A stretch of 36,977 nt of DNA from a virus. The stretch is from positions 1-36,977 of IMG/VR virus record IMGVR_UViG_3300043409_001093; one strand, written 5' to 3'. The notes below the pieces were generated by a model. That model was not told the origin of the DNA, searched no databases, and saw only the letters and a program-made list of their open reading frames with translations. The position numbers were made by a program, and so were the translations under genes. Below, piece after piece: positions 1,452 through 27,671 of the stretch. Positions within the stretch are counted from its first letter, which is position 1; each line of letters opens with the position of its first letter.

Positions 1452-1493
1452 GCCTTGCCGGTTCCGCTGTAAATACATTTTTACAAAGGATCG
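1439..1493 (+). repeat. 55-bp exact match to the 3' end of the window
   Basis: Identical to 36923-36977, with a mismatch immediately upstream (1438 G versus 36922 T). It contains the TAAATAC hairpin element. The length and terminal position suggest an assembly-graph overlap closing a circle. Confidence 0.85.
1468..1490 (+). promoter_or_regulatory. TAAATAC hairpin element plus RBS
   Basis: TGTAAA (1468-1473), loop tacatt, TTTACA (1480-1485): perfect 6-bp arms followed directly by the ribosome-binding site AAAGGA and the ATG at 1497. Member of a family placed before late gene blocks. Confidence 0.7.
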
Positions 1494-1496
1494 AAT

Positions 1497-1763
1497 ATGG
1501 AAAATGCTCAACTTGGCGGACCAATGCCCGTTCCACAAACTGGTGGTTTCGGCAATAAGAAACTCACCGACGATGAAAAGCGAATGATTTCCGGGATGCT
1601 TCTAAACCAACAAGGCGGTTCTCCGCAAGCATCGGCGATCAATGCCGCGACTGGCATTCTGGGCGCATACCTTATGAACCGAAAGCCAAACTCACCTCAA
1701 ACTGCTGCGGTTTCCCCGGCTCTGGCTCTGCTCGGTAATGGTGGCAATTCTGATATGGCGTAA
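1497..1763 (+). CDS. Small hypothetical protein, first gene of the ejection-protein block
   Basis: 88 residues, Gly/Asn/Gln-rich N-terminus, then a helical alanine-rich part (INAATGILGAYLM) and a low-complexity end. Not recognised. AAAGGA lies 6 bases before the ATG, downstream of the hairpin element. It is 2 bases from the next gene, so surely cotranscribed with the two internal-virion genes. By position it could be a small internal virion protein like T7 gp14, but no sequence similarity is claimed. Confidence 0.7.
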   Translation: MENAQLGGPMPVPQTGGFGNKKLTDDEKRMISGMLLNQQGGSPQASAINAATGILGAYLMNRKPNSPQTAAVSPALALLGNGGNSDMA

Positions 1764-1765
1764 TC

Positions 1766-3280
1766 ATGGACTTCGAAAACATTTTCAATAAATTCAATCC
1801 TCAACAGTATTCGGCGGATGATTTCGACTATACAAACGCTGTTGAGGAAAACAAGCGTAAGCAACAACTCGCAAACGGTTTGATGAATTTCAATCCGGGT
1901 GGTCAGCAGCAAATGGTTTCTGGATATCTCGTCGGAGGTTTACGAAATCCCCTGCAAACTGTGATCGCGGCGCTTTCCGGTGTAGCTGGGGCGAAGCTTC
2001 AAGCGAATTCTGATCTTGAGCGAAAGAACATGAACGAATTAGGTCGTCAGGTTTATCGTGATGGAATTCAACTGGTGAAGAATAACGGCCAGGAAGATGA
2101 ACGTCGTTTGGCTGCTATTCAGCAAGATCCCGATCGTTTTGTTGGCCAGGATCTTTCGCAATACGGAATCAACGATACAACAGATGCCGATCGCGTCAAA
2201 CGTGGTGCTGGAGCCCAGGTTGAGGCAATCCGTTTGGCTCGTGCTGAAGGAATCGAAAAGCTGCGTCGTTCAGGTCCGGATGGTCAGTCGTTCGCAAAAC
2301 TGTTCGATCAGCAAGATGTGAAATCGGCATTTCCGCAAGAACGCCCAGGACTGCAGGTTCTGCAACAAGGAGCTGTCGCTGTTGATTCTCAAGGTCGTGT
2401 TGTTGCTAGAAACGATCCAAGGCAATCTGACATCAAGGTGATTGGCCAAACTCAAAATCCGACCACTGGAATGTGGGATGTCATGCTCTCAAATGGTGAA
2501 ACTCGTCAATCCCCGAATCCTGTTCGGATCGGCGATGTTGCGCCAGAAGCTCCGATCGTGCTTTCGCCCGGACAGGTCGTCGTTCGGCCTCAAGATGCGC
2601 GAACCGGCTATCAGGCACCACAAGCGCCCGAAGCGCCGAAGCCTTTCAGCCTGGGTCGTGATGAAGTTCGTTTTGATACTAATGGTCGTGAAATCGCTCG
2701 TGGTCCAGCATCTGGACCCAAGGGCGATAAGGGCGACAAGGATCGACAAATGAACTTGGTCGCTTTTCAATCTGCTCAACGTGGATTGGCGGAACTCCGT
2801 GATCTGTTGAAACGATATAAGGCGGAAGGAACATACGAAAAGGCGACTTCGGCGATTGGTTTGGCGGCTGACAAGATTTCATTCGGTATTCTTGGTGGTG
2901 GAAATGCTGCCGCCGCGAAGGAACTTGAAAAGCCAGGTTTGATTGCTATGGAGTTCATTCGCAATATCATGAAGGCGAACGGTCTGTCTCCGACACAACT
3001 GTCAAACACTCAAGGCGAACAGGCGAATCTTGCGGCTCGGTTCTTTTCGATCGATCCAGCGCAACAGTCTGCGGCTCAAGTCGAACGCGCGATGAACGAT
3101 GGTTTGGCGGCTCTCGAACGCGAAGCGCAGGATCTGGCCAATCGAGTAAAGGCTGGTGAATTTGATTCTCGCGGTTCCGGAACTCCTGGTCAACGTCCTG
3201 AAGGTGCTCTTGGTTCTGGAACATTTGGTGCTCTGCCGCCTTCTGGAATCGCTCCGTCATGGATGAAAGATAGAAAGTGA
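1766..3280 (+). CDS. Putative internal virion / ejection protein
   Basis: 504 residues, mostly helical and Gln-rich. A hydrophobic Ala/Gly segment (LQTVIAALSGVAGA, ~61-74) could touch membrane. Around residues 315-325 is a short collagen-like GPKGDKGDKD stretch. The C-terminal third is helical and ends Pro/Gly-rich. No catalytic motif seen. It sits directly before the transglycosylase-bearing protein (3-base gap), as core proteins do in T7-like podoviruses; the role is inferred from this position and composition. Confidence 0.65.
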   Translation: MDFENIFNKFNPQQYSADDFDYTNAVEENKRKQQLANGLMNFNPGGQQQMVSGYLVGGLRNPLQTVIAALSGVAGAKLQANSDLERKNMNELGRQVYRDGIQLVKNNGQEDERRLAAIQQDPDRFVGQDLSQYGINDTTDADRVKRGAGAQVEAIRLARAEGIEKLRRSGPDGQSFAKLFDQQDVKSAFPQERPGLQVLQQGAVAVDSQGRVVARNDPRQSDIKVIGQTQNPTTGMWDVMLSNGETRQSPNPVRIGDVAPEAPIVLSPGQVVVRPQDARTGYQAPQAPEAPKPFSLGRDEVRFDTNGREIARGPASGPKGDKGDKDRQMNLVAFQSAQRGLAELRDLLKRYKAEGTYEKATSAIGLAADKISFGILGGGNAAAAKELEKPGLIAMEFIRNIMKANGLSPTQLSNTQGEQANLAARFFSIDPAQQSAAQVERAMNDGLAALEREAQDLANRVKAGEFDSRGSGTPGQRPEGALGSGTFGALPPSGIAPSWMKDRK

Positions 3281-3283
3281 TTT

Positions 3284-6200
3284 ATGCTGAATGATGAAAA
3301 TTTTCTAAATCAGATCCTCGACGATATTGTGTATGGTGAGCGAAGCGGCGATAAAGCCGTTTCGCCGAAGGGTGCGGTTGGTCGGTATCAATTGATGCCT
3401 GAAATTTCTCGTGCTTTTGGTGTTCAAGATCCGACTGATCCAGTTCAAGCGCGTGAAGGTGCGAAAAAGCTGGTCCAAGAGATTGGTGGTCGTGCTTTGA
3501 AAGCCAAACCTGACATCGATCCTGAAACTTTACGTCGAACCATTTTCGCCGGGTATAACGGTGGTATTGCCGCAGAGAGAGCAATTCTCGCAGGCGCTCA
3601 ACCTCCTGCCGATGAAACGCGGAATTACCTTCAGCGTATTTCAACTCGTGGCCAATCTCAACCTCTTATTTCATCCGACCTTACTGCGAAGTATCAAGAT
3701 CAAATTCAGTGGGCTCGTTCACAAGGATTCTCCGATCAGCAAATCCTGAACAATATTCGGGCCGATGAGCGTGAGAAGAATCAGCGTGAAGCCGCCATTG
3801 CGAATACTGTTGTGAATCGGCAACGATTGTTGAAAGAAGCACTGCCATCACTGAAAGTTGAGATTGCGAAGAATGGCGACGTGTCGAAGGCTCTCGATCA
3901 GATTGCTGCTCTGGATGGCGGGAAAGCGAAATTCAAGGAAGATATTGAATTTTTCCGTCAGCAAGGAATTCCAGACAATCAAATCCTGCTGGAACTGGCG
4001 CCTCAATTAGAAGTGCCACTGAATGCGAATGTTCGTCGATCTAAAAAATCTTTCGTAGACAACACTCTGGATGGCATCAAATCAGGCATTGAATCGGCTG
4101 GTTTGGGATTAGCCCAAGTTGTTGCTCCAGTTGCTGGTGCTATTCAGAATCGAATTGACGGGACGAATATCGATTACGGTCAAGGTCTGCGAAGGGTGGA
4201 AGCTCAACGTCGTCAAGATCCAGATCAAATCGCTCTCGGTGAAACAGTCGGCGGAACGATTGGCTCCATGCTGCCCGAAGTCGCTGTTGGTGCTGCTACC
4301 GCTCCAATCGGCGGCGGTCTGGCTCTTGGTGGTCGTCTGTTGGCGCAAGCTGGCGTGAATGCTCTGACAAACTCTGCTTTGAGTCCTTCCACTTCTACGG
4401 CGGAAACTCTTGCGAATGCTGGGATTGGTGCGGCTTTCGGTGCCGGTGGTGAACTGATCGCCCCTGCTGCGAAGAAGATCGCTCAATCGCGTGCCGGACA
4501 ATCAGTAGGCCAAGTCGCTGATATGATTGCCGATTCTAAAATTGTTCGCGGGTTTTCAAATCTCAAAGACAATGTTTTCGGCAAAACAGACACTCTGATT
4601 GCTCGATCTGATCACGAAGCTGCCCAAATCATCACTCGTCAAATTGGTGAAGAACTCGGGGTTGATACAACGCCATTCACCCAAAACGGCGTGTTTCAGC
4701 ATGGCGACGACACCGTGCCGGGCATGACTCAATTTTATGATCAAGTCAAAACAAAGGCCGGCGAGAATTACAACAGCATTCTGCGCGATCGAACCGCCAC
4801 TGTCGATGATAAGGCAATCAAGCAGATTGATACATTGATTTCAGATCCAAGTGTTGACCGCGAAATTGGGAATGAAATTGAGAATCTGTTCAAGATTGAA
4901 AAAGAAGTTCCAGATACAATTGACGTGAATGGTGTTCCAGTCCAGAAGCAGAAAGGAATCTCTCTGCGTCGTGCCGCGAATCCTGAACGTGAATTGAACA
5001 TCCTCGATCGCGAGATTCAACAGTTCAAAGATACGATTGACGGCAAGTTCTCGGGGACGAATTACAATCAATTCATTTCTGCTCAACGTCGTTTGGATTC
5101 GATTGATCGTGTTCGCAAGATGGTTCTCGGTTCTGATGCTCTGCTCGTCAAGACAACCAAAACCGCTGTTCCGAACTCAAAAAATGTGGTGAATGCCGAT
5201 GCGACGAAGTTGTCATCGATCATCGCCAAAAAGAACCGTCAGTTGGAAGCGATTGTTCCAAAGGAAGGTGGCGAACTGACTGCGGCTCAAAAGAAACTGA
5301 AAGAATCCCTCGAAGCTGATTTGAAGGATCTTGAAACTGTTTTCAAACTGAATTCCGCGAAAAAGATTGATGATCTGGATCGTCTGAAGAAGTTTGAAGA
5401 AGAAGATTTACAAGTATTCATCAAACAGAAGATCGCCCAGGCGAAGAATGAACTGGAACGAAAGCTCATCCAGCGCGATAAGGTCGCAGCGAAGAAATTC
5501 CAGTCAGAACAAGTCGGGTTGGTCGGTCAAACGAAGAAGGTGAAAGAGAATCGCAAACAGATCAAGATGACGGATCTGAATGACGTTCTGAACAATGTTG
5601 AAGATCGAATCTTTTCCGCTACTCAAGGCCAGTCGATCGATTACGCCCGTTTGAGCAAGCTGCAAGACATTCGGAATCGGATGCGTGAAATCCTTGATTC
5701 AAATCTCGGAGATACCGACAAGGCCAAATTTAGAGATGCCGATGAATATTACGGAAAATTCAAGGTATTCGAGAAGTTGATGTCCAAAACGAACAAGGAT
5801 CCGCTTGCGATTGCTGATCCTGCGAAATGGAATTCCGTCATCAATAGTGCTCAATATCGTGGCCGTGCTCTGAAAGACGAAGCTCCGCTTCAGAATGTTC
5901 AGGATGCTCTGGCCAAACGTGATCGTCGAATCACTCTGGCGAAACAGCTTTCCGGACAAACGCAGGAGGTGTCCGCTCTGCGGGATGCTGCGCTGATTGG
6001 CGGTCTCGGTGGCGGTTCGACTGGCTTTATTTTTGCTCGTGGTGCTCGTGCTCTGGATCGCGTTCCTCTGAATAAGGCGGTTCAGTCGATGCCCGAACTC
6101 GATGAACTTGTCGCACAGAAGGCGAAACGTTCTGTTTCTGGAGTTGTGGCGCGAGGATCGAAAACTGTATCGAATCAGGCTGCGGATGAAATCGAAAAGA

Positions 6201-6397
6201 AATTGATCGAAGAGGAAAAGAGAAAGATTCGAGAACGCGCGAAAGCTTTCATCAAGAACAACAATGTTTACGGTGAAAGACGTTCAGGCCCTCGTGGAAT
6301 TCAATTGAAGAAAGAACAAGCAAAACAGTTCATTCGAGATGAAAATCTGGATGGACAAGCACTAGCGACAATCTTGCGAGAGTATTTCACAGACTAA
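3284..6397 (+). CDS. Internal virion protein with N-terminal lytic transglycosylase (T7 gp16-like)
   Basis: 1037 residues. The N-terminal ~115 residues form an SLT-type lytic transglycosylase: Glu19 in GERSGD as candidate catalytic acid, SPKGAVGRYQLMP (27-39) and AGYNGG (89-94). Ala/Gly-rich hydrophobic segments follow around residues 265-285, 320-360 and 375-395, which may insert in the host membrane. Then come long charged coiled coils (~530-860) and a basic C-terminus. Such proteins are ejected with the DNA, locally cut peptidoglycan and help form a conduit to the cytoplasm. The ATG at 3284 has only a weak upstream purine run, fitting coupled translation. A terminator follows. Confidence 0.85.
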   Translation: MLNDENFLNQILDDIVYGERSGDKAVSPKGAVGRYQLMPEISRAFGVQDPTDPVQAREGAKKLVQEIGGRALKAKPDIDPETLRRTIFAGYNGGIAAERAILAGAQPPADETRNYLQRISTRGQSQPLISSDLTAKYQDQIQWARSQGFSDQQILNNIRADEREKNQREAAIANTVVNRQRLLKEALPSLKVEIAKNGDVSKALDQIAALDGGKAKFKEDIEFFRQQGIPDNQILLELAPQLEVPLNANVRRSKKSFVDNTLDGIKSGIESAGLGLAQVVAPVAGAIQNRIDGTNIDYGQGLRRVEAQRRQDPDQIALGETVGGTIGSMLPEVAVGAATAPIGGGLALGGRLLAQAGVNALTNSALSPSTSTAETLANAGIGAAFGAGGELIAPAAKKIAQSRAGQSVGQVADMIADSKIVRGFSNLKDNVFGKTDTLIARSDHEAAQIITRQIGEELGVDTTPFTQNGVFQHGDDTVPGMTQFYDQVKTKAGENYNSILRDRTATVDDKAIKQIDTLISDPSVDREIGNEIENLFKIEKEVPDTIDVNGVPVQKQKGISLRRAANPERELNILDREIQQFKDTIDGKFSGTNYNQFISAQRRLDSIDRVRKMVLGSDALLVKTTKTAVPNSKNVVNADATKLSSIIAKKNRQLEAIVPKEGGELTAAQKKLKESLEADLKDLETVFKLNSAKKIDDLDRLKKFEEEDLQVFIKQKIAQAKNELERKLIQRDKVAAKKFQSEQVGLVGQTKKVKENRKQIKMTDLNDVLNNVEDRIFSATQGQSIDYARLSKLQDIRNRMREILDSNLGDTDKAKFRDADEYYGKFKVFEKLMSKTNKDPLAIADPAKWNSVINSAQYRGRALKDEAPLQNVQDALAKRDRRITLAKQLSGQTQEVSALRDAALIGGLGGGSTGFIFARGARALDRVPLNKAVQSMPELDELVAQKAKRSVSGVVARGSKTVSNQAADEIEKKLIEEEKRKIRERAKAFIKNNNVYGERRSGPRGIQLKKEQAKQFIRDENLDGQALATILREYFTD

Positions 6398-6401
6398 AAC
6401 G

Positions 6402-6426
6402 AAACCCGGCGAATGCCGGGTTTTTC
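6402..6426 (+). terminator. Rho-independent terminator
   Basis: CCCGGC (6405-6410), loop gaat, GCCGGG (6415-6420), then TTTTT, ending the ejection-protein block. Confidence 0.85.
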
Positions 6427-6448
6427 TTTTCTGGCATCATGAAAATTC

Positions 6449-6474
6449 TTGTAAATACACATTTACAAAGGATT
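6449..6474 (+). promoter_or_regulatory. TAAATAC hairpin element plus RBS (tail fibre)
   Basis: TTGTAAA (6449-6455), loop tacaca, TTTACAA (6462-6468): 7-bp perfect arms, then AAAGGA before the ATG at 6478. It shows the tail fibre is a separate unit and that the upstream ATG at 6439 is not the start, since it would place this element inside the gene. Confidence 0.7.
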
Positions 6475-6477
6475 TTT

Positions 6478-8868
6478 ATGGCACGAAACGGCTCTGGTGT
6501 TTACGAACTGCCGAATGAACCGGTAGTCCCGGGAACCGTCATTAGTTCAACACATTACAATTCATCATTGACTGATATCGCTAACGGTCTGACTGATTCG
6601 CTTCCTCGAAGCGGAGAAGCGCCGATGGAATCAACCCTGCGAATCGTTGACGGTGGACCGAACAATCCCGGCATTCAATTCAATTCAGAAGCGACTGGTT
6701 TATTTCGTCCAAGTTCTGGCATTCTTGGATTCTCTGTTGCTGGTTCTGAACGGATGCGGATCGTTGATGGTCGATTGATTCTGGCTTCCACAATTGACGA
6801 CGGCGCTTCTTCTCTTCAAGTTGTCGGCAATACCAAACTTCAAGGCGATCTGAACATCTTCGGTGGAATGAATCTTCTGAATGGTGCGACCATTTCAGGA
6901 ACAACTCAACTTCAAACTCTCGGTTTCATTGGCGGCACTGGTTCCACTCTTGATTTGAGTGGCGGGGCGACCGTCGGCGGATTACTGGCTGCTTCCGGTC
7001 TTGGTGTATCTGGTGATGCTGCGGTTTTAGGCGAACTTGCTGTTGGCGGCAACATTCTTGCTGCCGGTGTTGATGCCGGCCCTTCACAATTTGACAGTAT
7101 TACAACTCCAACAATTCAAGTTGATGGTGCTTCAAATCTTTCAACTCTTTCCGTATCTGGAACTTCAACATTCACCGGAACTGCTGGTTTTCAAACTGTC
7201 AATTCTGTTGCGGTCAATTCCACAACAGTCAATTCTGAAAACATTTCGGCAACTGCTTTCGTAAATGGTGCGGTCGGTCAATTCACGACTTCTGTTTCTG
7301 CGCCTCTTGTCCAAACTTCCGCCACCACCGGCACAAGTTCGATGAAAGTTGGCGTTGGTCGAACTGGCGATGGTGGTTCGACTGTTGAATTCCTGACTGT
7401 GAATGGCGGCACCACATACAACTTCCGGGTGAATCGTTCATCTGGCGTAAATGGCAACATCAACTTCGAGCAAACTGGAACCGGTAGATTCAATTTCTCA
7501 CTGGATACCGGAACTGAATTCAGATATTCGACAGGTTCGACTGGTGGCATCACGCAGCGAATGATTGCGGCTCTGGCCACTCCCAACAATGGAGTTTATT
7601 CCCAATCAATTTCTTCTGTGGGGAATCTGAACTTATCGATTTCCAATGCTGCGATCACTGCAACAAACAACTGGTTGAGCACTGCGAGAAATGCAACCGG
7701 TGGCATTTCGTCGATCACGTTCCGAACTGGTGGTGATGTCGATTCGTCAAACAGTGTCGCAACGGCTCTAACCATATCAGAAACTGCTGTAGTTCCAAGT
7801 TTACAGATTCAAGCGATTTCAGGCACCGCAACAGCGCCGGGATACTCGTTTGCTGGTGATTCAAACACTGGCATTCTGCGTTCATCTGCTGACAATCTGG
7901 ATTTTGCAACTGGCGGTTCGATCCGACTGAATATCGATTCATCCGGTCGTCTGAATGGCACTGCTACTGCTGCGGATGTAGTTTCTCTGAAAACAACTTC
8001 CAACAGCGCGGTTTTCAACGTTGATGCGACTACCGCCACAGCAAATCAGAACAATTTCTCATTCAATCTGACATCTGCTGGCACAGTGCAAATGCTGCTT
8101 CGGAATGATGCGAAAACTGTGGCCACTACGCCAATCAGCATCACGAGAAATGCAACGACTGGTGCGGCTGCTTTCGCCGTGCGACTTGGCGGAGATACGA
8201 ATTCTGCGGGTTCCGATTTCGAAATCTTCCGAGCGAATTACATCGACGGAACTGCACAAGGCCGTTTGATTGTTGGCCATACCGCCTGCGATTTGTATTT
8301 CTCGAACTCTGACACAACGATCACGCCGAATCTTTCCATTCATGCGGTAAAAACTGGCGCAACTGGCCCGGCCGCTTCTCTCGGTTCAGATGGTTCGCAG
8401 AATGGCATTCTGTCGTTCAGTAGAACGAACACTGCCAATAAGAGAATCATCGGTTCGACTGTGGAAGGGATATCAGTCTCGAACACAGCAGGCGCAGAAC
8501 GTGGACGTTTGGATTTCCGAACCAAAGCTGCTGCTGATTCAACGACTGTCAGCAGAGCGACGATCGATGAAGTTTCATTCACTTCAGCCGTTCCAGTCAT
8601 TGCGCCAAAATCAATCAATGCTGCACTGACCCTGAACAACGTGTTTTCAACTTCCGCAGGTTTCACAATCAATACCGGTTTGACGGTTGGCGAATACACC
8701 GTTTACAACAATTCAGCCGCTGCTATCACGATTACACAGGGCGCAGGTTTGACCTTGCGTCAAAGTGGAACCGCGAACACTGGAAATCGAACTCTGAACC
8801 AACGTGGTGTTGCTCGAATTCTGGTGATTTCTTCCACCGAATACATTATTGAAGGAGCAATTTCATGA
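6478..8868 (+). CDS. Tail fibre protein
   Basis: 796 residues from the ATG at 6478. The N-terminus (MARNGSGVYELPNEPVVPGT... then SSTHYNSSLTDIANGLTDSL) is the module that opens many phage tail-fibre proteins and usually anchors them to the virion. The rest is Ser/Thr/Gly-rich beta structure with recurring units of the form PGYSFAGDSNTGILRSS and SGRLNGTATA, as in fibres built of repeated beta modules. The C-terminus (~735-796) is a small beta domain. There is no S74 chaperone here. It should bind the host surface. The stop overlaps the next start (ATGA). Confidence 0.85.
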   Translation: MARNGSGVYELPNEPVVPGTVISSTHYNSSLTDIANGLTDSLPRSGEAPMESTLRIVDGGPNNPGIQFNSEATGLFRPSSGILGFSVAGSERMRIVDGRLILASTIDDGASSLQVVGNTKLQGDLNIFGGMNLLNGATISGTTQLQTLGFIGGTGSTLDLSGGATVGGLLAASGLGVSGDAAVLGELAVGGNILAAGVDAGPSQFDSITTPTIQVDGASNLSTLSVSGTSTFTGTAGFQTVNSVAVNSTTVNSENISATAFVNGAVGQFTTSVSAPLVQTSATTGTSSMKVGVGRTGDGGSTVEFLTVNGGTTYNFRVNRSSGVNGNINFEQTGTGRFNFSLDTGTEFRYSTGSTGGITQRMIAALATPNNGVYSQSISSVGNLNLSISNAAITATNNWLSTARNATGGISSITFRTGGDVDSSNSVATALTISETAVVPSLQIQAISGTATAPGYSFAGDSNTGILRSSADNLDFATGGSIRLNIDSSGRLNGTATAADVVSLKTTSNSAVFNVDATTATANQNNFSFNLTSAGTVQMLLRNDAKTVATTPISITRNATTGAAAFAVRLGGDTNSAGSDFEIFRANYIDGTAQGRLIVGHTACDLYFSNSDTTITPNLSIHAVKTGATGPAASLGSDGSQNGILSFSRTNTANKRIIGSTVEGISVSNTAGAERGRLDFRTKAAADSTTVSRATIDEVSFTSAVPVIAPKSINAALTLNNVFSTSAGFTINTGLTVGEYTVYNNSAAAITITQGAGLTLRQSGTANTGNRTLNQRGVARILVISSTEYIIEGAIS

Positions 8869-9089
8869 ACCTTGATTGGAAACAAGTTGTAGCAGCATTG
8901 GTGATTTCCGCAATTACTTGGATTGCCTCGCAATTTTTCTCTGCGCAGAGTTCAATTTCTCTTGTGAAATTACAGATGGATCAAATTGCGCTGATGTTGA
9001 AAGAAGTTCGAGATCAACAAAAAGATTACGCGCTCAAATCAGAAGTTGAGCGTCTTGAAAAACGAATTGAAAGATTGGAGCAAAAATGA
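8865..9089 (+). CDS. Small membrane protein with coiled coil, lysis cluster
   Basis: 74 residues: one N-terminal transmembrane helix (~8-26, VVAALVISAITWIASQFF) followed by a charged coiled coil (~35-74, EVERLEKRIERLEQK). The shape resembles small phage membrane proteins next to holins, and an i-spanin would also look like this, but no o-spanin partner was found. ATGA overlap with the tail fibre and again with the holin-like gene indicates coupled translation. Confidence 0.75.
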   Translation: MNLDWKQVVAALVISAITWIASQFFSAQSSISLVKLQMDQIALMLKEVRDQQKDYALKSEVERLEKRIERLEQK

Positions 9090-9283
9090 ATACTCAAAAA
9101 CTCAAAGGACTTTTGAAATCAAGAACGTTCTGGTGGAATGCCTCAACCATCGCAATTGAATCTGGCGCCTTACTCGGCGTTCTCGGCGTCCCTCCTGGCA
9201 CAATCACCGCGATTTCGGCACTCGGAAATATTGTGCTGCGAACACTCACTGTCGAATCACTAGAAGACAAAGGGGCGAAATGA
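9086..9283 (+). CDS. Holin-like small membrane protein
   Basis: 65 residues. SRTFWWNASTIAIESGALLGVLG, the Pro-containing turn VPPGTIT, and a second hydrophobic segment AISALGNIVLRTLT match a common family of short phage proteins annotated as holins. Two membrane segments (~17-34 and ~38-52) are expected. It would permeabilise the inner membrane for the endolysin, which here lies beyond the integrase at 11496. ATGA overlaps on both sides. Confidence 0.65.
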   Translation: MNTQKLKGLLKSRTFWWNASTIAIESGALLGVLGVPPGTITAISALGNIVLRTLTVESLEDKGAK

Positions 9284-9513
9284 AAGACGACGACGAACCT
9301 GACGTTTATTCAGAAGCAATGTTTCGCCTTCCAAATGGCGAAATCGTTCCCCTGAAATCGATCATTCCGGCAGAAGCTTTCAAAGCACCGAAGCTGATTC
9401 GACGATACAAGATTTACGGTTGCTGTGATGGATTCCATCGCGGATATAAATCGTATCAGTCTTTCATGCGTGATGAAAAAAAGAGACTCCGAGAATTTGG
9501 GGTGATCAAGTAA
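9280..9513 (+). CDS. Hypothetical protein, last gene of tail fibre-lysis operon
   Basis: 77 residues, acidic N-terminus (MKDDDEPD) and basic C-terminus, with paired cysteines (GCCDGFHRGY) in the middle. Not recognised. Overlaps the holin-like gene by ATGA and is closed by a terminator. Confidence 0.75.
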   Translation: MKDDDEPDVYSEAMFRLPNGEIVPLKSIIPAEAFKAPKLIRRYKIYGCCDGFHRGYKSYQSFMRDEKKRLREFGVIK

Positions 9514-9540
9514 AAAAGCCGGCGAATGCCGGCTTTTTGT
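9512..9540. terminator. Bidirectional terminator
   Basis: A-tract, GCCGGC (9518-9523), loop gaat, GCCGGC (9528-9533), TTTTT. Shared by the lysis operon (+) and the integrase (-). Confidence 0.87.
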
Positions 9541-11102
9541 TATTCAGCCCCCAACTGTCTGGCCTTGTATCTTGCTTTGTTTCCGATCTTCATTTTTATT
9601 TCTCTTCCGAAGATCGGGAATTCGTTGTTCTCGGAAATGATGTCGATCTGTCTGTATTGGATTGAACCATCAATTCTATGGGGAATTCTATCTACAATGA
9701 TTTTGGCCACGATCAACCGGATGGATTGAATCAGCTCTCTTCTGGCTTCATCCGATTTGATCGACTCCTTCCAGTTGTCGAACAGCTCTCGACGATCAAC
9801 AACGTGTTTCAATGCGACTTCACTTCCTTTTAGATCCGTGATCTGTTCTTGTATCTGCTTCCGTTCTTTCTCTTGCTCTTCGATCTTCTTCACCATCATA
9901 TTGATCACTGTTGGCGAATCAGCATTTTCAATCGCATCGGTGAAATTTTTGATCTTGGCGTCAATGGCGTCGATCTTGGCATTCAGCGAAAGCAGTTTTC
10001 CGGGACTTGATTTCTTCCCGAATCTTTGATTCAAATGAACATAGAGCAGATACAGAATTTCATTCTCAAAGTCTCCATACGGAACAACGATCGATTCACA
10101 GCCACCATGATCGCGAGTGTTCATACATTTCAACATTCTGGTGTCGTATCCATTTTCGTCAATTTCCCCTGCGAAAAACAAGCCAGCACCACAGCGGCAC
10201 GAAACAATCGAAGTAAAGAGATTTGAGGTCGTGAGCTTCGGATTCCTGTTCTGCTTTCTGGTTCGCATCTCGATGATCATTCTGACTTCACGAAACTCGT
10301 CTTCGGTGATGATCGGCGGATAGTAGTTTTCAATCCGTTCATCTTCTTTTGTAATGAGAACACCGAAAACTGCTTCATCGGCAAGAAACCGTTGAATTGT
10401 CGATTGAATCCATATCTTTCCGTCATCACGATGAAAGCCGGATCCGTGCTGGTTGAATGTCTGCGCGATTTTGTTGGCACCGTATCCGAGTTTGGCCAGT
10501 CGATACGCTTCCCGCACGATCTTCGCTCTCGATTCATTGATCGTGTATGTCTCGCCTTGATGCGGTCTGCCAGTGATCCAGAATGGATTTCGACCGGTGA
10601 AGCATTCATTCTTTTGCTTCTGTTGCTTGATCCAAGCCCGAGAACGATTTGATTTCTTTTCAGATTCATCTCTTCCGCGAATGAGCTGTCCGAGTGTGAT
10701 GAACAAGCATGCGGGATCTTGGTTCAGTCGTTCTTTAGAAAAATGCTGATTGTCCACGGTCGTAAAGATTTCGACGCCCATTGAAACAATTCTGGTGAGC
10801 AGCGAAAGCGCATCCAGTGGCGTGGCTCTTGTCAAACGATCAAGAGCTTCGATTACGATGATCGAGCTTCGTTCGATTTCTCCGATTTCAATGAGTTTGA
10901 TCAGTCTTCCGAGTCCGCGATTTTCTGACAAATTTGATGAATCATACGCAGAAACTCCGATATCACGGAACTTCCGATTTGAGAGGGTCCACCCCTTTTC
11001 TCTACAGATTCTTTCAGTTTCGGCAGTCTGTCGGCGGATACCGTCTCCATGAGCCTGAACAGCGGAGCTGATCCGAACGTATGAATATGCGACTTTTTCC
11101 AT
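9540..11102 (-). CDS. Large serine recombinase / phage integrase
   Basis: 520 residues from the ATG at 11102. Resolvase-type catalytic domain (1-~150): YVRISSAVQ with the nucleophile candidate Ser12 and Arg10, DIGVSAYDSS, and EALDRLTR. A Recombinase domain follows (~165-270: GRNPFWITGRP, IVREAYRLAKLGYGANKIAQTFN). Then a zinc ribbon (CRCG...C...C, ~305-345) and a long coiled coil (~380-440), the usual large serine integrase plan. It would integrate the phage between attP and attB. The GTG at 11147 is in frame, but using it would place coding sequence inside the attP candidate; the ATG at 11102 leaves attP free. Confidence 0.88.
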   Translation of the reverse strand: MEKVAYSYVRISSAVQAHGDGIRRQTAETERICREKGWTLSNRKFRDIGVSAYDSSNLSENRGLGRLIKLIEIGEIERSSIIVIEALDRLTRATPLDALSLLTRIVSMGVEIFTTVDNQHFSKERLNQDPACLFITLGQLIRGRDESEKKSNRSRAWIKQQKQKNECFTGRNPFWITGRPHQGETYTINESRAKIVREAYRLAKLGYGANKIAQTFNQHGSGFHRDDGKIWIQSTIQRFLADEAVFGVLITKEDERIENYYPPIITEDEFREVRMIIEMRTRKQNRNPKLTTSNLFTSIVSCRCGAGLFFAGEIDENGYDTRMLKCMNTRDHGGCESIVVPYGDFENEILYLLYVHLNQRFGKKSSPGKLLSLNAKIDAIDAKIKNFTDAIENADSPTVINMMVKKIEEQEKERKQIQEQITDLKGSEVALKHVVDRRELFDNWKESIKSDEARRELIQSIRLIVAKIIVDRIPHRIDGSIQYRQIDIISENNEFPIFGREIKMKIGNKARYKARQLGAE

Positions 11103-11131
11103 TTTTGGCGCCTGTTGATGCTGGATTTTAC

Positions 11132-11177
11132 CTGCGCTGATAGACACTTCGGGGAACCTGTGTGTCCGACAGCGCAG
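11132..11177. other. Candidate attP (nested dyad upstream of serine integrase)
   Basis: CTGCGCTG - ata - GACAC - 14-base centre - GTGTC - cga - CAGCGCAG: a 46-bp site with two nested perfect inverted repeats and equal 3-base gaps. The centre is the asymmetric pair GA (11154-11155). GATTTTACC flanks it as direct repeats (11124-11132, 11181-11189). Size, dyad form and position just upstream of the integrase start fit attP of large serine integrases. Confidence 0.6.
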
Positions 11178-11471: not shown

Positions 11472-11493
11472 GTAAATACCTCTTTTGAGGTAT
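11471..11493 (+). promoter_or_regulatory. TAAATAC element with RBS-containing hairpin (endolysin)
   Basis: TGTAAATACC runs into the hairpin ATACCTC (11476-11482), loop tttt, GAGGTAT (11487-11493). The 3' arm contains the ribosome-binding site GAGG for the ATG at 11496. Confidence 0.65.
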
Positions 11494-11495
11494 GA

Positions 11496-12053
11496 ATGGG
11501 ATTCGATGATGCTATAAATCTGACGATGCGTTTCGAAGTTGGCGCTTGGTTCGATCCGAATCATCCGGCTTGTGTTTCTGGTTCAATCAAAACTGCTGCG
11601 GATCGCCGAGCCACTGGCTATGTGAATGATCCTGATGATTCAGGCGGTGAAACAAAGTTCGGTGTTGCGAAGAATGCCAATCCTGATCTTGATATTGATT
11701 CATTGACATTCGCCGCAGCTAAACGAATCTATTTCAAGAAATACTGGCTCGCTGGTGATTGTGCTGATTTGCCAGAAAAGATCGCCCTCGCCCATTTCGA
11801 TGCTTGTGTTCATCATGGCATTGGCAGAGCGGCCAAAATGCTTCAGGAAGCTGTAGGAGCAACGATTGATGGTGATATCGGCCCGAAGACGATTCAGGCG
11901 GTTCGTAGTGCGAATGAAGCGGTTGTTCTGGCGAAGATGCTGGAGATTCGGAGAAGATTCTTTCGCGAGATCGTGAAGAACAGACCGACGAACGGGAAGT
12001 TTCTGAACGGGTGGATGATACGGGTTGATACGATTCAGAGAATACTCAAATGA
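11496..12053 (+). CDS. Endolysin, GH108-type muramidase
   Basis: 185 residues. The N-terminal domain has the GH108 pattern: Glu14 (MRFEVG) as candidate catalytic acid and GYVNDPDDSGGETKFGV (41-57). The C-terminal part has a peptidoglycan-binding-3-like segment (GATIDGDIGPKTIQAV, 121-136). It cleaves peptidoglycan glycan strands at lysis. The family usually reads E-G-G after the acid; here it is E-V-G. No signal peptide, so it needs the holin. It lies apart from the holin (9086) because the integrase/attP module is inserted between them. Confidence 0.88.
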   Translation: MGFDDAINLTMRFEVGAWFDPNHPACVSGSIKTAADRRATGYVNDPDDSGGETKFGVAKNANPDLDIDSLTFAAAKRIYFKKYWLAGDCADLPEKIALAHFDACVHHGIGRAAKMLQEAVGATIDGDIGPKTIQAVRSANEAVVLAKMLEIRRRFFREIVKNRPTNGKFLNGWMIRVDTIQRILK

Positions 12054-13074: not shown

Positions 13075-13124
13075 ATTTCTCCTTCATAACGTCAACGATA
13101 CGAGCCTGACGGCCCGATGAATGT

Positions 13125-13153
13125 ATTGTGCGATGGCCCCCGAGTTTCGTCAA
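13125..13153 (-). promoter_or_regulatory. Sigma70-like promoter of antirepressor operon
   Basis: Minus strand: TTGACG (13148-13153), 17-base spacer, CACAAT (13125-13130), about 50 bases before the first start codon. Confidence 0.55.
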
Positions 13154-13360
13154 GGGTTTGGATCTGGAGATATATTTCGGATTGATTTCGTGAATTCTAT
13201 TATTAGAAAAGTTGTTTTGGAATGATTTATACTACGAAAAAGGAAGCGACATATACCCAAATACACCTTCTCTCCCCCCACTGTTTTGTCGCCCGCTTCG
13301 CAGGCTCCGAATACCTCAACCAGTTGGTTTTCTATTTCAGTGATCTGTGCAAGGTGTGGA

Positions 13361-13425
13361 TCATGGCATTTTTTAGTTCCTAAAATTAAGAGAAGAATAA
13401 CTTTAGGAAGTAAAAAATGCCATGA
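13361..13425. repeat. Long hairpin A
   Basis: Arms of 24 bp (13361-13384 and 13402-13425) with one mismatch and a 17-base loop. The arm contains TGGCATTTTTT and TTCCTAAA. Confidence 0.85.
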
Positions 13426-13807
13426 ATGAGTTTTCGTGCGGTGAGCGAAGCGAAGCCGCTGAAAGAACTTGATGAGATATGCGTGAATGATCCGGCTCAA
13501 TGATCACTCGTCGCAGACGGAAGACGGTCGCAGAATGAGCAGTTGTCGAATGAGCCGCAGGCGAATGAAGATCAACTGACGAAGTTCTGTCGATCCGTCC
13601 CAAGAAGACAATGGCACCTTGTTAGATCACGAACTCGGTCGTTCGACCTCATTCGCAACTCGCTGATCCATTCGCATCGCAAGCGATGTCTCATAGATCA
13701 ACTCGTTGTTTCGCCGATGAATCGGATTGATCTTGAGCGAATGATCCAGCTCAATGAATCAACGGTTCTTCAGCCGTCTGCGCGCTGCGCGCTTGACGTG
13801 CTCACCG

Positions 13808-13861
13808 TGGCAAAAAGTTTGCCTAAAGAAATACAAATTCATTTAGGAAAATTTTTTGCCA
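13808..13861. repeat. Long hairpin B
   Basis: Arms of 20 bp (13808-13827 and 13842-13861) with two mismatches and a 14-base loop. Arms (TGGCAAAAA...CCTAAA) resemble those of hairpin A. The outermost arms of A and B also share the flank TGTGGATC in opposite orientation. Confidence 0.82.
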
Positions 13862-13947
13862 GGATCCACATCTGCAGACCCTCACGGATCATCGCGAAAT
13901 AGAAAACCATCTGTTTTGTCTGTAAATAGCAGAGCAGTCCGCGAACC

Positions 13948-13977
13948 TTGACGAAAGCAGAGATTCGATCGTAGACT
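13948..13977 (+). promoter_or_regulatory. Possible sigma70-like promoter
   Basis: TTGACG, 18-base spacer, TAGACT, about 75 bases before the gene at 14052. Confidence 0.35.
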
Positions 13978-13987
13978 GAAAAAAGAA

Positions 13988-14018
13988 CGCCCCGAAACTG
14001 CGGGAACAGCTCGGGGCG
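13988..14018. promoter_or_regulatory. Stem-loop in leader of gene 14052
   Basis: CGCCCCGA (13988-13995), 15-base loop, TCGGGGCG (14011-14018). On the minus strand it is followed by TTCTTTTTT and would act as a terminator of antisense transcripts; on the plus strand it lies in the leader with no T-tract. Confidence 0.5.
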
Positions 14019-14051
14019 GTATATCAACATCAAAACAAAGGAAGCCAATCC

Positions 14052-14714
14052 ATGTCTGACGCAACAGTATTTACGAATTCTAAACTACATCCTGCTATCA
14101 TTCAAGGCCAAAATATCAGAGCAAAAATGACGAAACATTTGACTGCCCCAAAAAGAGAAGATTACGACCGAGAACAGCGATTCCAAGCGGCTTTACGAAA
14201 GCATCGTGATTACGTCGCACGTTTGACGAAAGTGATCGTTATCGTTATTCGCGAGCACATTCGAGCTTGCGCAAAAGCAGAACTGTATCCGAACACCGAG
14301 TTTCTGCACTCCATTTGTTTGACGAAGCTTTACTGCATCATGGCTGGCGGTGGTCGATATGTTCAACGGTCCGCTGACGATCCGACGATGCGCATCGTCC
14401 CACTGTCCAGCACATACAATGACGACGTGCGAATCATCGTCGAGGCATTCTTTGATCATCGTCTTCGTGGGACCAATCGAACCGGTTCATCGAAGTGGAC
14501 ACCGAAACAAGTTCCAAAGTTTGGATCGGAATTCATCCTCTCACTGCTACTGATCTACGAAGAGAACAAAGCTCAATTCGACGTGATTCTTGAATTTTTG
14601 AAGAAGAGTGATTCTGATGAAGAAGGAATCTTTGAAGACGAGTTCATCTTCGAGATATCGGAAACAGTTTCAGAACAGATTTCTGAACGCCTGCTGAACG
14701 TCATCAACGCTTGA
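14052..14714 (+). CDS. Hypothetical protein
   Basis: 220 residues, AAAGGA ten bases before the ATG. Mixed helical protein with a basic N-terminal half (APKREDYDREQRF..., LRKHRDYVARLTKVI), a central ICLTKLYCIMAGGGRYVQR segment and an acidic tail (EFLKKSDSDEEGIFEDEF). Not recognised. As one of few medium-sized genes outside the virion block with its own promoter, it is a candidate for replication or late-transcription control, but no motif supports either. Confidence 0.7.
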   Translation: MSDATVFTNSKLHPAIIQGQNIRAKMTKHLTAPKREDYDREQRFQAALRKHRDYVARLTKVIVIVIREHIRACAKAELYPNTEFLHSICLTKLYCIMAGGGRYVQRSADDPTMRIVPLSSTYNDDVRIIVEAFFDHRLRGTNRTGSSKWTPKQVPKFGSEFILSLLLIYEENKAQFDVILEFLKKSDSDEEGIFEDEFIFEISETVSEQISERLLNVINA

Positions 14715-15906: not shown

Positions 15907-16306
15907 ATTCCTCAAAGAAACAAGTGGCCCAGCGTATCACGCGATCGTCAGCGCCATCATCAGAATCACCAACAATCCAAAGCTCACAGGCAAGCGAAAC
16001 CATCGATCCAGTCCGGCCAGTCTGATGACGAACCGCACCAAGCCAGCAAAAATCGATATCGTTCCCTGCCTCATCCTGGCGGACCTGAAAGTCCGGATCC
16101 TGGCGGATGAATTCAAGGAATTCCCGATGGCCGTCAAATTCCGCGTATCGCTTCGTGGGCGCATCGTAAATAAGGATCGACTGATCATTATCGAGAAAAT
16201 TCAGCTCGGCATTCAGAAGGCCGGAATGGGCGAGATGGTATTGAACGCGAGTATCAACCGGCGCAGGTTCGCTCAAATGGCGCTTCACGATAGAATTCGG
16301 AGTCAT
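15905..16306 (-). CDS. Hypothetical protein
   Basis: 133 residues from the second ATG (16306, MTPNSIVKRH). By alignment with other TAAATAC elements, TGGAT (plus 16312-16316) is its ribosome-binding site; the first ATG (16321) lies where the hairpin 3' arm should be. Acidic, WLGAVRHQTGRTGSM in the middle. Not recognised. Only minus-strand gene of this operon with its own TAAATAC element. Confidence 0.65.
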   Translation of the reverse strand: MTPNSIVKRHLSEPAPVDTRVQYHLAHSGLLNAELNFLDNDQSILIYDAPTKRYAEFDGHREFLEFIRQDPDFQVRQDEAGNDIDFCWLGAVRHQTGRTGSMVSLACELWIVGDSDDGADDRVIRWATCFFEE

Positions 16307-16311
16307 TGAAA

Positions 16312-16340
16312 ATCCATTCATAAAAATGTATTTACGAACG
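16312..16340 (-). promoter_or_regulatory. TAAATAC element on the minus strand
   Basis: Minus strand GTAAATACATTTTTAT with 5-bp arms (one G-T pair) and the same tacatt loop as the element at 1468, then TGGAT and ATG. Confidence 0.6.
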
Positions 16341-16370
16341 AAAAAAGCCGGCTAAAAGCCGGCTTCGTTC
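16341..16370 (-). terminator. Rho-independent terminator
   Basis: Minus strand GCCGGC, loop ttttа-like (5 bases), GCCGGC, TTTTTT. Same stem as at 485-514. Ends the 16391-17091 pair. Confidence 0.78.
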
Positions 16371-16390
16371 GTTGGGGAATAAAAATAAAA

Positions 16391-16789
16391 TCACACGGGT
16401 TCGCGGTAGATAAAAATCCACGGTTCGTCGCGCTCTTCCCATTCGAGCGAATCCAGATCATCCGCATCTTCTGGAACTCCAATCGCTTGCCAAACCGGAA
16501 CCGACAGAACGTGATGAATGATTCCTTCAATTCGGAATCCTGCAATGGAAAATTCGTTCATGGACGGGGCGACCCAGTAAGCCGGAAGCCCTCCATTGTC
16601 CTGCCATTCTGTCGCATGCCAGCAATCCGGAAGCGGAGTGAATTCACCAATGACCCGATAAACGAGCCGATTCGCTTCTTCGATCATTCGAGCGAATACC
16701 GGATCATCAGTGAATTCCAACTGATTCCGAACAGAATAAAGCTTGTCGAGAACATCAGCGTCGAGCGTCGAATTATTGTAAATCATCAT
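16391..16789 (-). CDS. Hypothetical protein
   Basis: 132 residues. AAGGAG lies 8 bases before the ATG at 16789 on the minus strand. Tryptophan-rich, acidic (PDCWHATEWQDNGGLPAYW, LEWEERDEPW). No family recognised. It follows the 16807 gene by 17 bases, so same operon. Confidence 0.72.
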   Translation of the reverse strand: MMIYNNSTLDADVLDKLYSVRNQLEFTDDPVFARMIEEANRLVYRVIGEFTPLPDCWHATEWQDNGGLPAYWVAPSMNEFSIAGFRIEGIIHHVLSVPVWQAIGVPEDADDLDSLEWEERDEPWIFIYREPV

Positions 16790-16806
16790 GTTGAATGCTC
16801 CTTGAA

Positions 16807-17091
16807 TCAGTATTCGTAGTTCATCAGAACCGTGGTATTAGAACGATCCCATTCGGTGATAACGTAAACCATGTCGTCGCCGAATTTATAGAAGGAATGA
16901 ATCGAATCCCCATTCCGAACAGCATCAGTGTTCGCCTGCGCATCGTCAGTGCAGACATCGCCCCAATCGCCGGACACGTGCCGAGACAGCATCTTGCTGA
17001 TTCCATCCGCCCCGACACGCTCAAAGGCTTCGACGGTAAGGCTGATATCACCCAGGGCGAACAGCATACGTTCAGCATTCACATTCAGCAT
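16807..17091 (-). CDS. Small protein of a plasmid/mobile-element family
   Basis: 94 residues. The pattern ALERVGADGISKML-like...RHVSGDWGDVC...NTDAVRNGDSIHSFY...VITEWDRSNTTVLMNYEY resembles a short protein of unknown function common on plasmids and integrative elements (R-H-x-x-G-D-W-G-D and I-T-E-x-D-R-S-x-T-T are typical). This is from memory of the family. GGAG lies 8 bases before the ATG at 17091; the promoter is at 17151-17178. Confidence 0.75.
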   Translation of the reverse strand: MLNVNAERMLFALGDISLTVEAFERVGADGISKMLSRHVSGDWGDVCTDDAQANTDAVRNGDSIHSFYKFGDDMVYVITEWDRSNTTVLMNYEY

Positions 17092-17150
17092 TCTAAATTC
17101 TCCATTCGTTGATTACACATTTATCGGCATTCACTCAACCGATGAATGCT

Positions 17151-17178
17151 ATTCTACCCGTTCGGCGCTGATCGTCAA
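17151..17178 (-). promoter_or_regulatory. Sigma70-like promoter
   Basis: Minus strand TTGACG (17173-17178), 16-base spacer, TAGAAT (17151-17156), overlapped and flanked by GAATG words; drives the 17091-16391 genes. Confidence 0.62.
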
Positions 17179-17218
17179 GCGTCCAGCCATTCTCCGCCTT
17201 CACAGAATGGGCATTCAA

Positions 17219-17234
17219 TCTTTCACGTGGAATG
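17219..17234. other. parS-like site, degenerate copy
   Basis: TCTTTCACGTGGAATG: core TTTCACGTGGAA as in chromosomal parS variants, flanked by GAATG words like the tandem pair at 19192-19245. Confidence 0.4.
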
Positions 17235-17305
17235 CTTATTCACTGAATGGCTCTGAATAGACATTCACACATTGAACGTGAGTAGAACCGTCCCGGAACA
17301 TAGGC

Positions 17306-17340
17306 GTAAAAAAGCCGACTGGCTTTCGCACAGTCGGCAA
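17306..17340 (-). terminator. Rho-independent terminator
   Basis: Minus strand GCCGACTG, 9-base loop, CAGTCGGC, TTTTTTAC. Ends the 17370-18356 gene. Confidence 0.8.
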
Positions 17341-17369
17341 GATCACAGGGGATGTTCGTATTTAGCGGA

Positions 17370-18356
17370 TCACTCTTTCCGTGGCGGATCAAGCTTCGCG
17401 ATCAGGTCGGCGATCTCCTGGGGCGTCGTCTTCCCCTGCTTCACCGCGTCCGAAGCACCTCGACCGCGCACAGTCCAGCCGCCTGCCTTCGTGGGGCTGA
17501 CTGGAATCACGCGACCGCTGGCCGTAGTGATCTGATCCCATAGCACGCCACGGGTCGACGCATCTTTACGTGTAGCAGGACCGCGCACGTCGTCAGCGCC
17601 ATTATTCAGGCCCGCACGGATCATCAGCCAGTTTTTCAATTTTTCGCTCTGACCGGGCGACAGCCATTCTGGAAGCTCGGGCGAGTTCCCAAAGGCGTCA
17701 TACATCGCCGAATAAACATCCGTCATCGTCGCAGGCGTATCGCCCATTCCATGATCGCTCATCACTGCGACAATAAATTCAGGATCTAAATCCAGTTCAG
17801 TCTTCCCGTCGAATACCAGCTTCGACAATTCCTGTATGACAATTTTCTGAATGCCTTTCGGGAACTCGTCTTTCGACCAATGTTCGAGCTGCTCTTTAGC
17901 CGCAGCAAGCATCTGATCCGATGGCTTGTTCTTCGTGGACAGCCGGATCTCGTTTACGAGTTCTTCATACTCAGCTTCAATCTGTTCCAGCTCGGCGCGC
18001 AATTCCGCCCGACGCAAATAGAGGTTCATTTCTGCGCTATTCGTATTCGGGCGTTCCGCGAACACGTTCACGACAGGTTCAGCCACAGGCACAGGAGCAG
18101 GCACAGGAGCAGGCACAGGAGCAGGCACAGGAGCAGGCACAGGAGCAGGCACAGGAGCAGGCACAGGAGCAGGTTCGGCCTTCTTCGCCTTCGTTTCGGC
18201 CTCTCGTTGTTCGCGCAAGATCGCCGCACGCGAACTCATCAATCGTCTCGGGCTCACCTCCACACCGTCGAGGTATGCCTTTCCATCTCGCGTCTCAATC
18301 CGCGCATTTTCTTCGGCCGTCAGCAGCGGCTGAGCTTGTTTCTTCGCTTCGCTCAT
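17370..18356 (-). CDS. Hypothetical protein with PAPV repeat
   Basis: 328 residues from the ATG at 18356 (AAGGAG 7 bases upstream; the in-frame GTG at 18359 is less well spaced). Basic N-terminus (~1-60), then seven PAPV units forming a rigid linker (~62-92), a charged helical part (~100-160) and a C-terminal domain (~165-328) with SDHGMGDTPATMTDV and ELPEWLSPGQSEKLKNWLMIRAGL. The final ~60 residues are basic and Gly/Thr-rich. No family recognised. The 12-base DNA repeat may change copy number. Confidence 0.78.
   Translation of the reverse strand: MSEAKKQAQPLLTAEENARIETRDGKAYLDGVEVSPRRLMSSRAAILREQREAETKAKKAEPAPVPAPVPAPVPAPVPAPVPAPVPAPVPVAEPVVNVFAERPNTNSAEMNLYLRRAELRAELEQIEAEYEELVNEIRLSTKNKPSDQMLAAAKEQLEHWSKDEFPKGIQKIVIQELSKLVFDGKTELDLDPEFIVAVMSDHGMGDTPATMTDVYSAMYDAFGNSPELPEWLSPGQSEKLKNWLMIRAGLNNGADDVRGPATRKDASTRGVLWDQITTASGRVIPVSPTKAGGWTVRGRGASDAVKQGKTTPQEIADLIAKLDPPRKE
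18088..18171. repeat. 12-bp tandem repeat, seven units
   Basis: Seven exact GGCACAGGAGCA units coding (minus strand) for PAPV. Opposite-strand open frames here are shadows of it. Confidence 0.92.
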
Positions 18357-18432
18357 CACATTTCTCCTTCAACAGTTCACACACACAAGTTTCGGCGCTG
18401 TTCTAAAAATCTTGAGTGGTTCGCGCCATCAA

Positions 18433-18540
18433 CCACCACAACTGAATTCTGCCATTCAATTCGCCATTCGTCAATCCCCATTCAATCACCATTCAGCGAA
18501 CAGGGTTGAATGCCATTCATCCGAATACATTCATGATCAA
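18433..18540. repeat. CATTC-rich intergenic cluster
   Basis: Seven CATTC/GAATG words within roughly 90 bases between the recombinase end and the PAPV gene start, several as CCATTCA. Confidence 0.65.
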
Positions 18541-19050
18541 TTCGCATTGCTGATCTTCATCAAATCCACAATACATTCGCGTTATGGCAATCGAACTATG
18601 CCCATACAGCTCACAGATCGCCTCAATCGACACGCCATTTTCCCGCAGTTTCCGACCGTAGCATTTCCGTAAAGAGTGCGAAGCGAATTCCGCATCATCC
18701 AGTCCGAAGGAACTACAAGCCTTCTTCAATTTTCTATTGTAGGTCTTGTTCGATGGTGGCAATTCCGGATCACCAAAAACGAATTCTGATCTTGATGGTA
18801 AATCATCAATCACAGCTCGCATTCTGGGGGTCATGACACAACGACGTTTCTTCTTCGTCTTTATCTGATCTACAAAAAAGATCGATCCAATTCGCACATC
18901 AGCAAGATCACTCTTTTTCAAATGTTCAATCTCACTGTATCTCAATCCACATTCTACCATGAAGACAGTAATCGCACTGTAAATGCGATCATCGAATTCA
19001 TTGAGGATCAATGGATAAAAATCAGTTGGCAATGGTCGTTTAGCCTCCAT
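18517..19050 (-). CDS. Small tyrosine recombinase (catalytic domain only)
   Basis: 177 residues with the complete tyrosine recombinase set: Arg37 (ECGLRYSEI), Lys near 64 (QIKTKKKRR), His125-x-x-Arg128 (SHSLRKCYG), His151 (GHSSIAITR) and nucleophile Tyr160 (RMYCGF). It lacks the N-terminal SAM-like core-binding domain of lambda-type integrases, so it is closer in size to FimB-like or resolvase-type enzymes. Since the phage already has a serine integrase, a role in dimer resolution or a DNA switch is possible. AAGGAG before the ATG; promoter at 19084-19111. Confidence 0.85.
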   Translation of the reverse strand: MEAKRPLPTDFYPLILNEFDDRIYSAITVFMVECGLRYSEIEHLKKSDLADVRIGSIFFVDQIKTKKKRRCVMTPRMRAVIDDLPSRSEFVFGDPELPPSNKTYNRKLKKACSSFGLDDAEFASHSLRKCYGRKLRENGVSIEAICELYGHSSIAITRMYCGFDEDQQCELIMNVFG

Positions 19051-19083
19051 TCGTTCTCTCCTTGTTTCGTTTCCATGGGGTGA

Positions 19084-19111: not shown

Positions 19112-19191
19112 GCCCATTCAGCAAGTGTGGTGAATGCTCATTCAATCTGATGGATCACGCAAAAACGATTCAGGGAATGACAATCGAATCA

Positions 19192-27670: not shown

Positions 27671-27671
27671 A

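Follow-up and report, generated by a model that had tools for sequence, protein, structure and literature searches.

Candidate −10-only late promoters within hairpins predicted to hide translation starts in an Mx8-like podovirus genome

Our analysis of IMG/VR virus record IMGVR_UViG_3300043409_001093, which at its full 36,977 bases is the window referred to throughout, revealed a shared core sequence, a common position and spacing ahead of the genes that it precedes, inverted-repeat arms matched to each other, and, by computation, a burial of the start site that is relieved when the RNA begins at the element. From these features we infer promoter activity, the position of the transcription start and an effect on translation, and we consider it probable that the elements are −10-only late promoters lying inside hairpins that hide the ribosome-binding site, such that only locally started mRNA is translated.

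We propose the following model. Each element would be a −10-only late promoter, TAAATACNNNTTT, set within an inverted repeat, with the Shine-Dalgarno (SD) sequence and/or the AUG located in the 3′ arm. A transcript arriving from further upstream, whether it began in a different late unit, in an early unit or, in a lysogen, in host DNA, would contain both arms, and with both arms present the RNA would fold and hide the start site. A transcript begun at the element would lack the 5′ arm and would be translated. One short sequence would gate the first genes of late blocks twice, through promoter recognition and through exclusion of read-through RNA.

A recurrent core ahead of late genes

The original prediction described a recurrent TAAATAC element directly before the first gene of late blocks, and this is borne out, since all the sites that it named carry the motif. 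TAAATAC occurs 14 times in the window against 0.89 expected, a count reached in none of 100 shuffles, and ranks first among 7-mers counted upstream of genes. The sharper constant part is TAAATACNNNTTT, with 10 matches (9 independent) against 1 for a reversed control; it is identical throughout the nine independent sites and comprises ten invariant positions. When columns −60 to +36 were aligned over these sites, invariant ones lay only in the core, and a nine-site profile scanned over the genome scored 19.2–26.2 bits at the sites and 13.7 bits at the best non-site. The start codon lies 23–30 nt downstream of the element at all nine, on the assumption that translation of the 16.3-kb minus-strand gene begins at ATG 16306. 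The headed genes belong to late (structural or lysis) units or are the two short orphan genes on the minus strand; none of the recombinase, antirepressor or homing-endonuclease-like genes is preceded by an element, and no identifiable early or lysogeny gene is headed by one.

A tenth copy at the contig end (36952–36977, plus strand), which had been listed as a site of its own, is a copy of the first element and not an independent case: positions 7–1493 are 83.4% identical to 35517–36977, and the last 55 nt of the window exactly repeat 1438–1492. Sites 1468 and 36952 are counted once because these end repeats point to circular permutation. The TAAATAC copies at 14067, 17358, 19712 and 24873 have neither the TTT nor a hairpin and are treated as background. 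The major capsid gene (28743) and the gene that follows it (29760) are preceded by sequences of the form TGTAAATAA, at 28700–28720 and 29740–29750; without the element's C and TTT, these may be weak variants or chance matches.

Inverted repeats matched site by site

Palindromic flanks surround seven of the sites, and their sequence, length and centre vary by site. Element 1 (1468–1496, plus strand; core 1470–1482), with arms TGTAAA (1468–1473) and TTTACA (1480–1485) and AAAGGA as SD, heads genes at 1497–6397 for tail or internal proteins, including a transglycosylase-domain protein. Its hairpin is weak and not significant alone (p=0.15 against shuffles). Element 2 (6439–6480, plus; core 6452–6464; inner arms 6449–6456 and 6461–6468; p=0.002) follows closely on a terminator (6401–6424) and has an extended helix that covers the SD and AUG of gene 6478–8868. 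In element 3 (11473–11498, plus; core 11473–11485), the arms ATACCTC (11476–11482) and GAGGTAT (11487–11493) bury the SD of the endolysin gene (11496–12053); a terminator ends 11 nt upstream, and part of the hairpin's stability (p=0.002) is that of the terminator stem. Element 4 (16304–16342, minus; core 16334–16322; arms 16342–16331 and 16324–16313; p=0.002), with a terminator end 10 nt upstream, heads an orphan gene (16306–15905) whose start is presumed to be ATG 16306.

Elements 5 and 6 share a single palindrome, CCATAAATAC/GTATTTATGG, at 20288–20322 on both strands, with back-to-back cores at 20291–20303 (plus) and 20319–20307 (minus) and hairpin p values of 0.004 and 0.07, respectively. 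Both start codons lie within the palindrome: on the plus strand ATG 20319, which opens the gene that precedes the large terminase, and on the minus strand ATG 20291, which opens orphan gene 20291–19908. The two genes diverge, and reverse-complementing the promoter core of either one yields the start region of the other. Element 7 (22081–22124, plus; p=0.002) holds its core (22095–22107) in the loop between arms ATGTCATTCCCAG (22081–22093) and CTGGGAATGACAT (22111–22123), and its 3′ arm region contains the start of the portal gene (22122–24320). Element 8 (27283–27322, plus; core 27290–27302; p=0.002) has arms GTGAACGTAAA (27283–27293) and TTTACGTTCAC (27300–27310), with an outer CCUCU paired with the SD AGGGG, and heads 27320–33079, which comprises FmdB-like, scaffold-position, major capsid and tail genes. 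Element 9 (33077–33105, plus; core 33077–33089) has no stable hairpin (p=0.29) and heads a fibre gene with an S74-type C-terminus (33103–35997); the TAA of its core doubles as the stop codon for the acetyltransferase gene upstream.

Compared with shuffles of both flanks, six of eight independent sites fold more stably (p≤0.004; Fisher 2e-10), and shuffling of the upstream flank alone gives a Fisher value of 5e-9. When 3′ arms were exchanged between sites, stability fell from −14.7 kcal/mol with the own arm to −9.4 kcal/mol with a foreign one (p=0.0012), a loss of about 5 kcal/mol on average, which indicates that the arms are matched site by site. The predicted hairpins are thus upheld at most sites but not at 33077 or, taken alone, at 1468. 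Likewise, the view that the stems differ while staying paired holds for the arms of each site; however, the palindrome centre is shifted relative to the motif at 11471, 20288 and 22081, and there is consequently no single conserved stem. The changes had been called compensatory, a term that here denotes different matched arms at sites within one genome and is not equivalent to covariation between species. With element 9 lacking a hairpin and element 1 having a weak one, gating appears to be frequent but not universal, and we count both sites as points against the model.

Burial and release of the start sites

In read-through RNA, the SD or AUG is predicted to be paired at seven of nine sites, the pairing being weak at element 1 and absent at 33077. 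When read-through RNA is modelled from 60 nt before the ATG, opening the start region costs 13.8 kcal/mol on average; 26 genes of this genome used as controls average 6.9 kcal/mol (p=5e-4), and for the elements the cost drops to 4.0 kcal/mol in RNA beginning at core +12. These folding energies are thermodynamic and ignore co-transcriptional folding and ribosomes. By site, the cost falls from 9.9 to 4.3 kcal/mol (element 1), 15.1 to 2.6 (element 2), 16.1 to 2.3 (element 3), 9.8 to 5.2 (element 4), 13.8 to 1.2 and 14.0 to 2.7 (elements 5 and 6), 17.2 to 4.0 (element 7) and 23.1 to 7.1 (element 8), and goes from 5.8 to 6.5, without relief, at element 9. When the 5′ end was moved stepwise, burial persisted until the 5′ arm was cut and was lost at the expected start. 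The arm of element 3 lies within the core (+3 to +9), so only a start beyond about +8 would free the SD; the expected start does lie beyond +8.

As a positive control, the same calculation was applied to 21 T4 genes behind TATAAATA. It flagged I-TevII (13.6 to 0.4 kcal/mol) and both promoters of gene e (15.4 to 3.9 kcal/mol and 14.4 to 1.5 kcal/mol), and did not recover soc with the short upstream stretch used. Relief of at least 5 kcal/mol was found at 7 of the 21 T4 sites, compared with seven of nine sites here (p=0.02).

Evidence for promoters and alternative explanations

At 6452, 11473 and 16334 (minus strand), a strong intrinsic terminator stops short of the element by 28, 11 and 10 nt, respectively, so downstream transcription must begin at or very near the element, and there is no room for a −35 at these three. 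A scan of all elements found no sigma70-like promoter or pair overlapping any of them, the late half contains 10 sigma70-like matches where 19.9 were expected (s.d. 4.2), and upstream of the core a single weak column is the only conserved one. T4 late promoters typically consist of a −10 element only (PMC2988020), and the gp36 promoters of phiEco32 are −10-only with starts 6–8 bp downstream of the element (PMC8948821). Applying this spacing here places the expected transcription start about 6–8 nt beyond the C, coinciding with the TTT or immediately following it. The terminators also supply a point against the model, because read-through is already limited at these three sites and what the hairpin would gain there is less clear.

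The elements might be promoters only, the palindromes having arisen from an AT-rich core (TAAA...TTTA) and chance, with no translational role. The core itself implies TAAA/TTTA pairing at six sites, and elements 9 (33077) and 1 (1470) have no significant hairpins, as such an origin would allow; it does not fit the upstream-only shuffles, the arm exchange or an opening cost exceeding that of control genes, and we consider it unlikely. The original prediction had left open a promoter, a translational operator or both, and it is the last of these that our analysis supports, with the operator part as a cis-acting, ribosome-binding-site-hiding hairpin and not as a protein-bound RNA. Were the element a translational operator of the latter kind, transcription would start upstream and every mRNA would include the hairpin, which a UAAAUAC-binding phage protein would open or close. 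The element does always adjoin or overlie the start region; however, the structural setting of the constant letters varies (loop at 22095, partly stem at 1470, wholly stem at 20291), which would be hard for an RNA-binding protein to accommodate and makes such an operator unlikely, the palindrome centre moves by about 7 nt relative to these letters, and the three terminators 10–28 nt upstream leave little space for an earlier start. We accordingly give this explanation very little weight. A DNA operator for a dimeric repressor or activator is the least probable reading, for although inverted repeats at promoters are typical operators and elements 1, 2, 4 and 8 (cores 1470, 6452, 16334 and 27290) have one symmetry centre in common, the arms, of 6–13 bp, share no half-site, which makes a dimer operator unlikely, and the centre is displaced at 11473, 20291 and 22095.

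Three further candidates were rejected. No Rfam family match overlaps any element at E≤1, which speaks against a curated Rfam cis-regulatory RNA, and the stems are not intrinsic terminators, as no T run follows them. The N4 virion RNA polymerase uses hairpin promoters of a fixed small stem-loop geometry and is itself very large; here arms and loops vary, and the longest ORF encodes 1037 amino acids with a transglycosylase-like domain.

Relation to known systems

The closest parallel to late promoters set within hairpins comes from T4, in which the helix that hides the SD/AUG in longer transcripts contains a −10-only late promoter within its 5′ portion, and a local start leaves that portion out (PMC3014915, PMC2988022). 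This arrangement has been described for e, soc, 49 and I-TevI (PMC3014915), and the same control has been reviewed for I-TevII, I-TevIII, segB and mobE (PMC2988022). In our energy test, T4 e and I-TevII are flagged together with the elements described here, and a local start is predicted to free the start site in this genome as well (4.0 kcal/mol at core +12, for a start at the expected position). The systems differ in that a minority of the tested late genes show such relief in T4 and seven of nine sites do so here, and in that the window has a different promoter core in an unrelated, small, podovirus-type genome without gp55.

Likeness to the gp55-dependent late promoters of T4, as originally noted, extends to TAAATA (nine of nine sites), the absence of a −35 and an AT-rich start region (PMC2988020). 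It does not extend to the TA at −13/−12, which is missing at all nine sites; the TATAAATA octamer is not found, and T4 sites lack the window's invariant C and TTT positions. In the T4 relative Aeh1, −13/−12 may differ from TA (PMC2988020). Given the missing TA, the additional C and TTT, and the lack of a detectable gp55, clamp or sigma region 2, the elements are not T4 late promoters by definition. The middle and late promoters of phiEco32 resemble them in being single-element promoters of a podovirus with starts 6–8 bp downstream; their consensus is tAATGTAtA, as opposed to TAAATACNNNTTT here, no gp36-type sigma or sigma region 2 match was detected in the window, and the available text of the phiEco32 report describes no hairpin over the ribosome-binding site (PMC8948821).

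The observation that no T4-type sigma is visible stands. Searches of the window gave no match for the gp55 sigma and gp45 sliding clamp (phrog_234, phrog_223) and none for Sigma70_r2, and family scans of its proteins found no T4-type or other sigma factor, although the genome seems nearly complete. A very diverged factor of the gp55/gp45 type may nevertheless be encoded, or the core may be recognised by one of the phage's orphan proteins or by a factor that the host or another, co-infecting phage supplies. A 220-aa orphan (14052–14714), considered as a possible sigma factor, yielded an unusable structural model (pLDDT 41), and in a PF00940 search for a T7-type polymerase the controls themselves gave no match.

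What is the relevance of such an arrangement? The mechanism itself is established in T4; what appears to be new is that an Mx8-like podovirus would apply it to almost its entire late gene set. We advance only tentatively the wider picture of a phage of about 35 kb that employs some nine T4-like −10-only promoters, an unrecognised initiation factor and hairpin gating as a design rule for late units. If true, gating would be a general rule for late units rather than a device for a few dangerous genes. Applied to nearly all late units, it would insulate transcription units generally from read-through, which would benefit a prophage, since host transcripts straying into lysis or capsid genes would be harmful; in T4, the same gating shields a minority of late genes from early read-through. 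The late initiation factor implied by this picture would have a clear 10-base recognition sequence and should thus be straightforward to seek.

The genome and its relatives

Megablast of the window's first 20 kb gave no match among sequenced phages. The terminase, portal and major capsid proteins are about 23–41% identical to those of the Mx8/BUCT555/ppBjS10J-1 podovirus group, and Mx8- and BUCT555-like podoviruses also have a similar late gene order; the relatives examined lack a comparable multi-copy upstream motif or an enrichment of TAAATACNNNTTT. No close relative emerged from capsid scans (best major-capsid identity about 41%), from portal and capsid scans of GTDB genomes, or from scans of IMG/VR with the tail protein, the 220-aa orphan and the terminase. 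Upstream 7-mer counts in about 90 related loci gave no motif comparable to TAAATAC, and a search for the same motif elsewhere with the pattern GTAAATACAYWTTTACAAAGGA gave no match. The pattern TAAATACNNNTTTACAAAGG matched six IMG/VR loci; their whole records carry just one or two TAAATACNNNTTT each, and they were dropped as support for a T4-type link. Among 50 records checked whole after a looser promoter-plus-RBS pattern, the maximum was four TAAATACNNNTTT, in a 156-kb record, with at most three in the others, compared with 10 here. With so few copies per whole record, we regard the matches elsewhere as chance or isolated cases. One record, L061, has a hairpin-like TAAATAC at 1392, and its two TAAATACNNNTTT lie elsewhere.

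The window encodes a serine recombinase, a tyrosine-recombinase-like protein and an AntA-type antirepressor, which makes a temperate life likely. The large serine recombinase gene (9540–11147, minus strand), which has distant relatives only, lies within the late region, flanked on the opposite strand by small genes (8865–9513) and the endolysin gene. Both contig ends carry versions of a fibre-gene C-terminus and an opposite-strand gene for a GIY-YIG-like endonuclease, and joining the ends yields the BUCT555 gene order of tail protein, acetyltransferase, fibre gene and transglycosylase-domain protein. We infer that the genome is circularly permuted, measures about 35.5 kb and is nearly complete, one stretch being represented twice in differing versions; the ends look like two allelic versions of a circular genome and not a true duplication. 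The proteins scanned included no recognisable DNA polymerase, helicase or primase, even though the genome looks nearly complete.

Nearly 1 kb at 13100–14040 has no convincing genes and contains repeated or inverted segments (e.g., around 13340–13425 and 13845–13880); an inverted repeat in this region lies behind two meaningless sub-threshold Rfam miRNA matches. The early/regulatory region holds parS-like 16-mers at 17219, 19192 and 19219 (TCTTTCACGTGGAATG once, TGTTTCACGTGGAATG twice) with 3–4 mismatches to bacterial parS, and no ParB gene was noticed in the window. At 16001–20000, GAATG/CATTC pentamers reach 10–15 per kb, about twice the density of most of the genome, and are possible iterons or operators.
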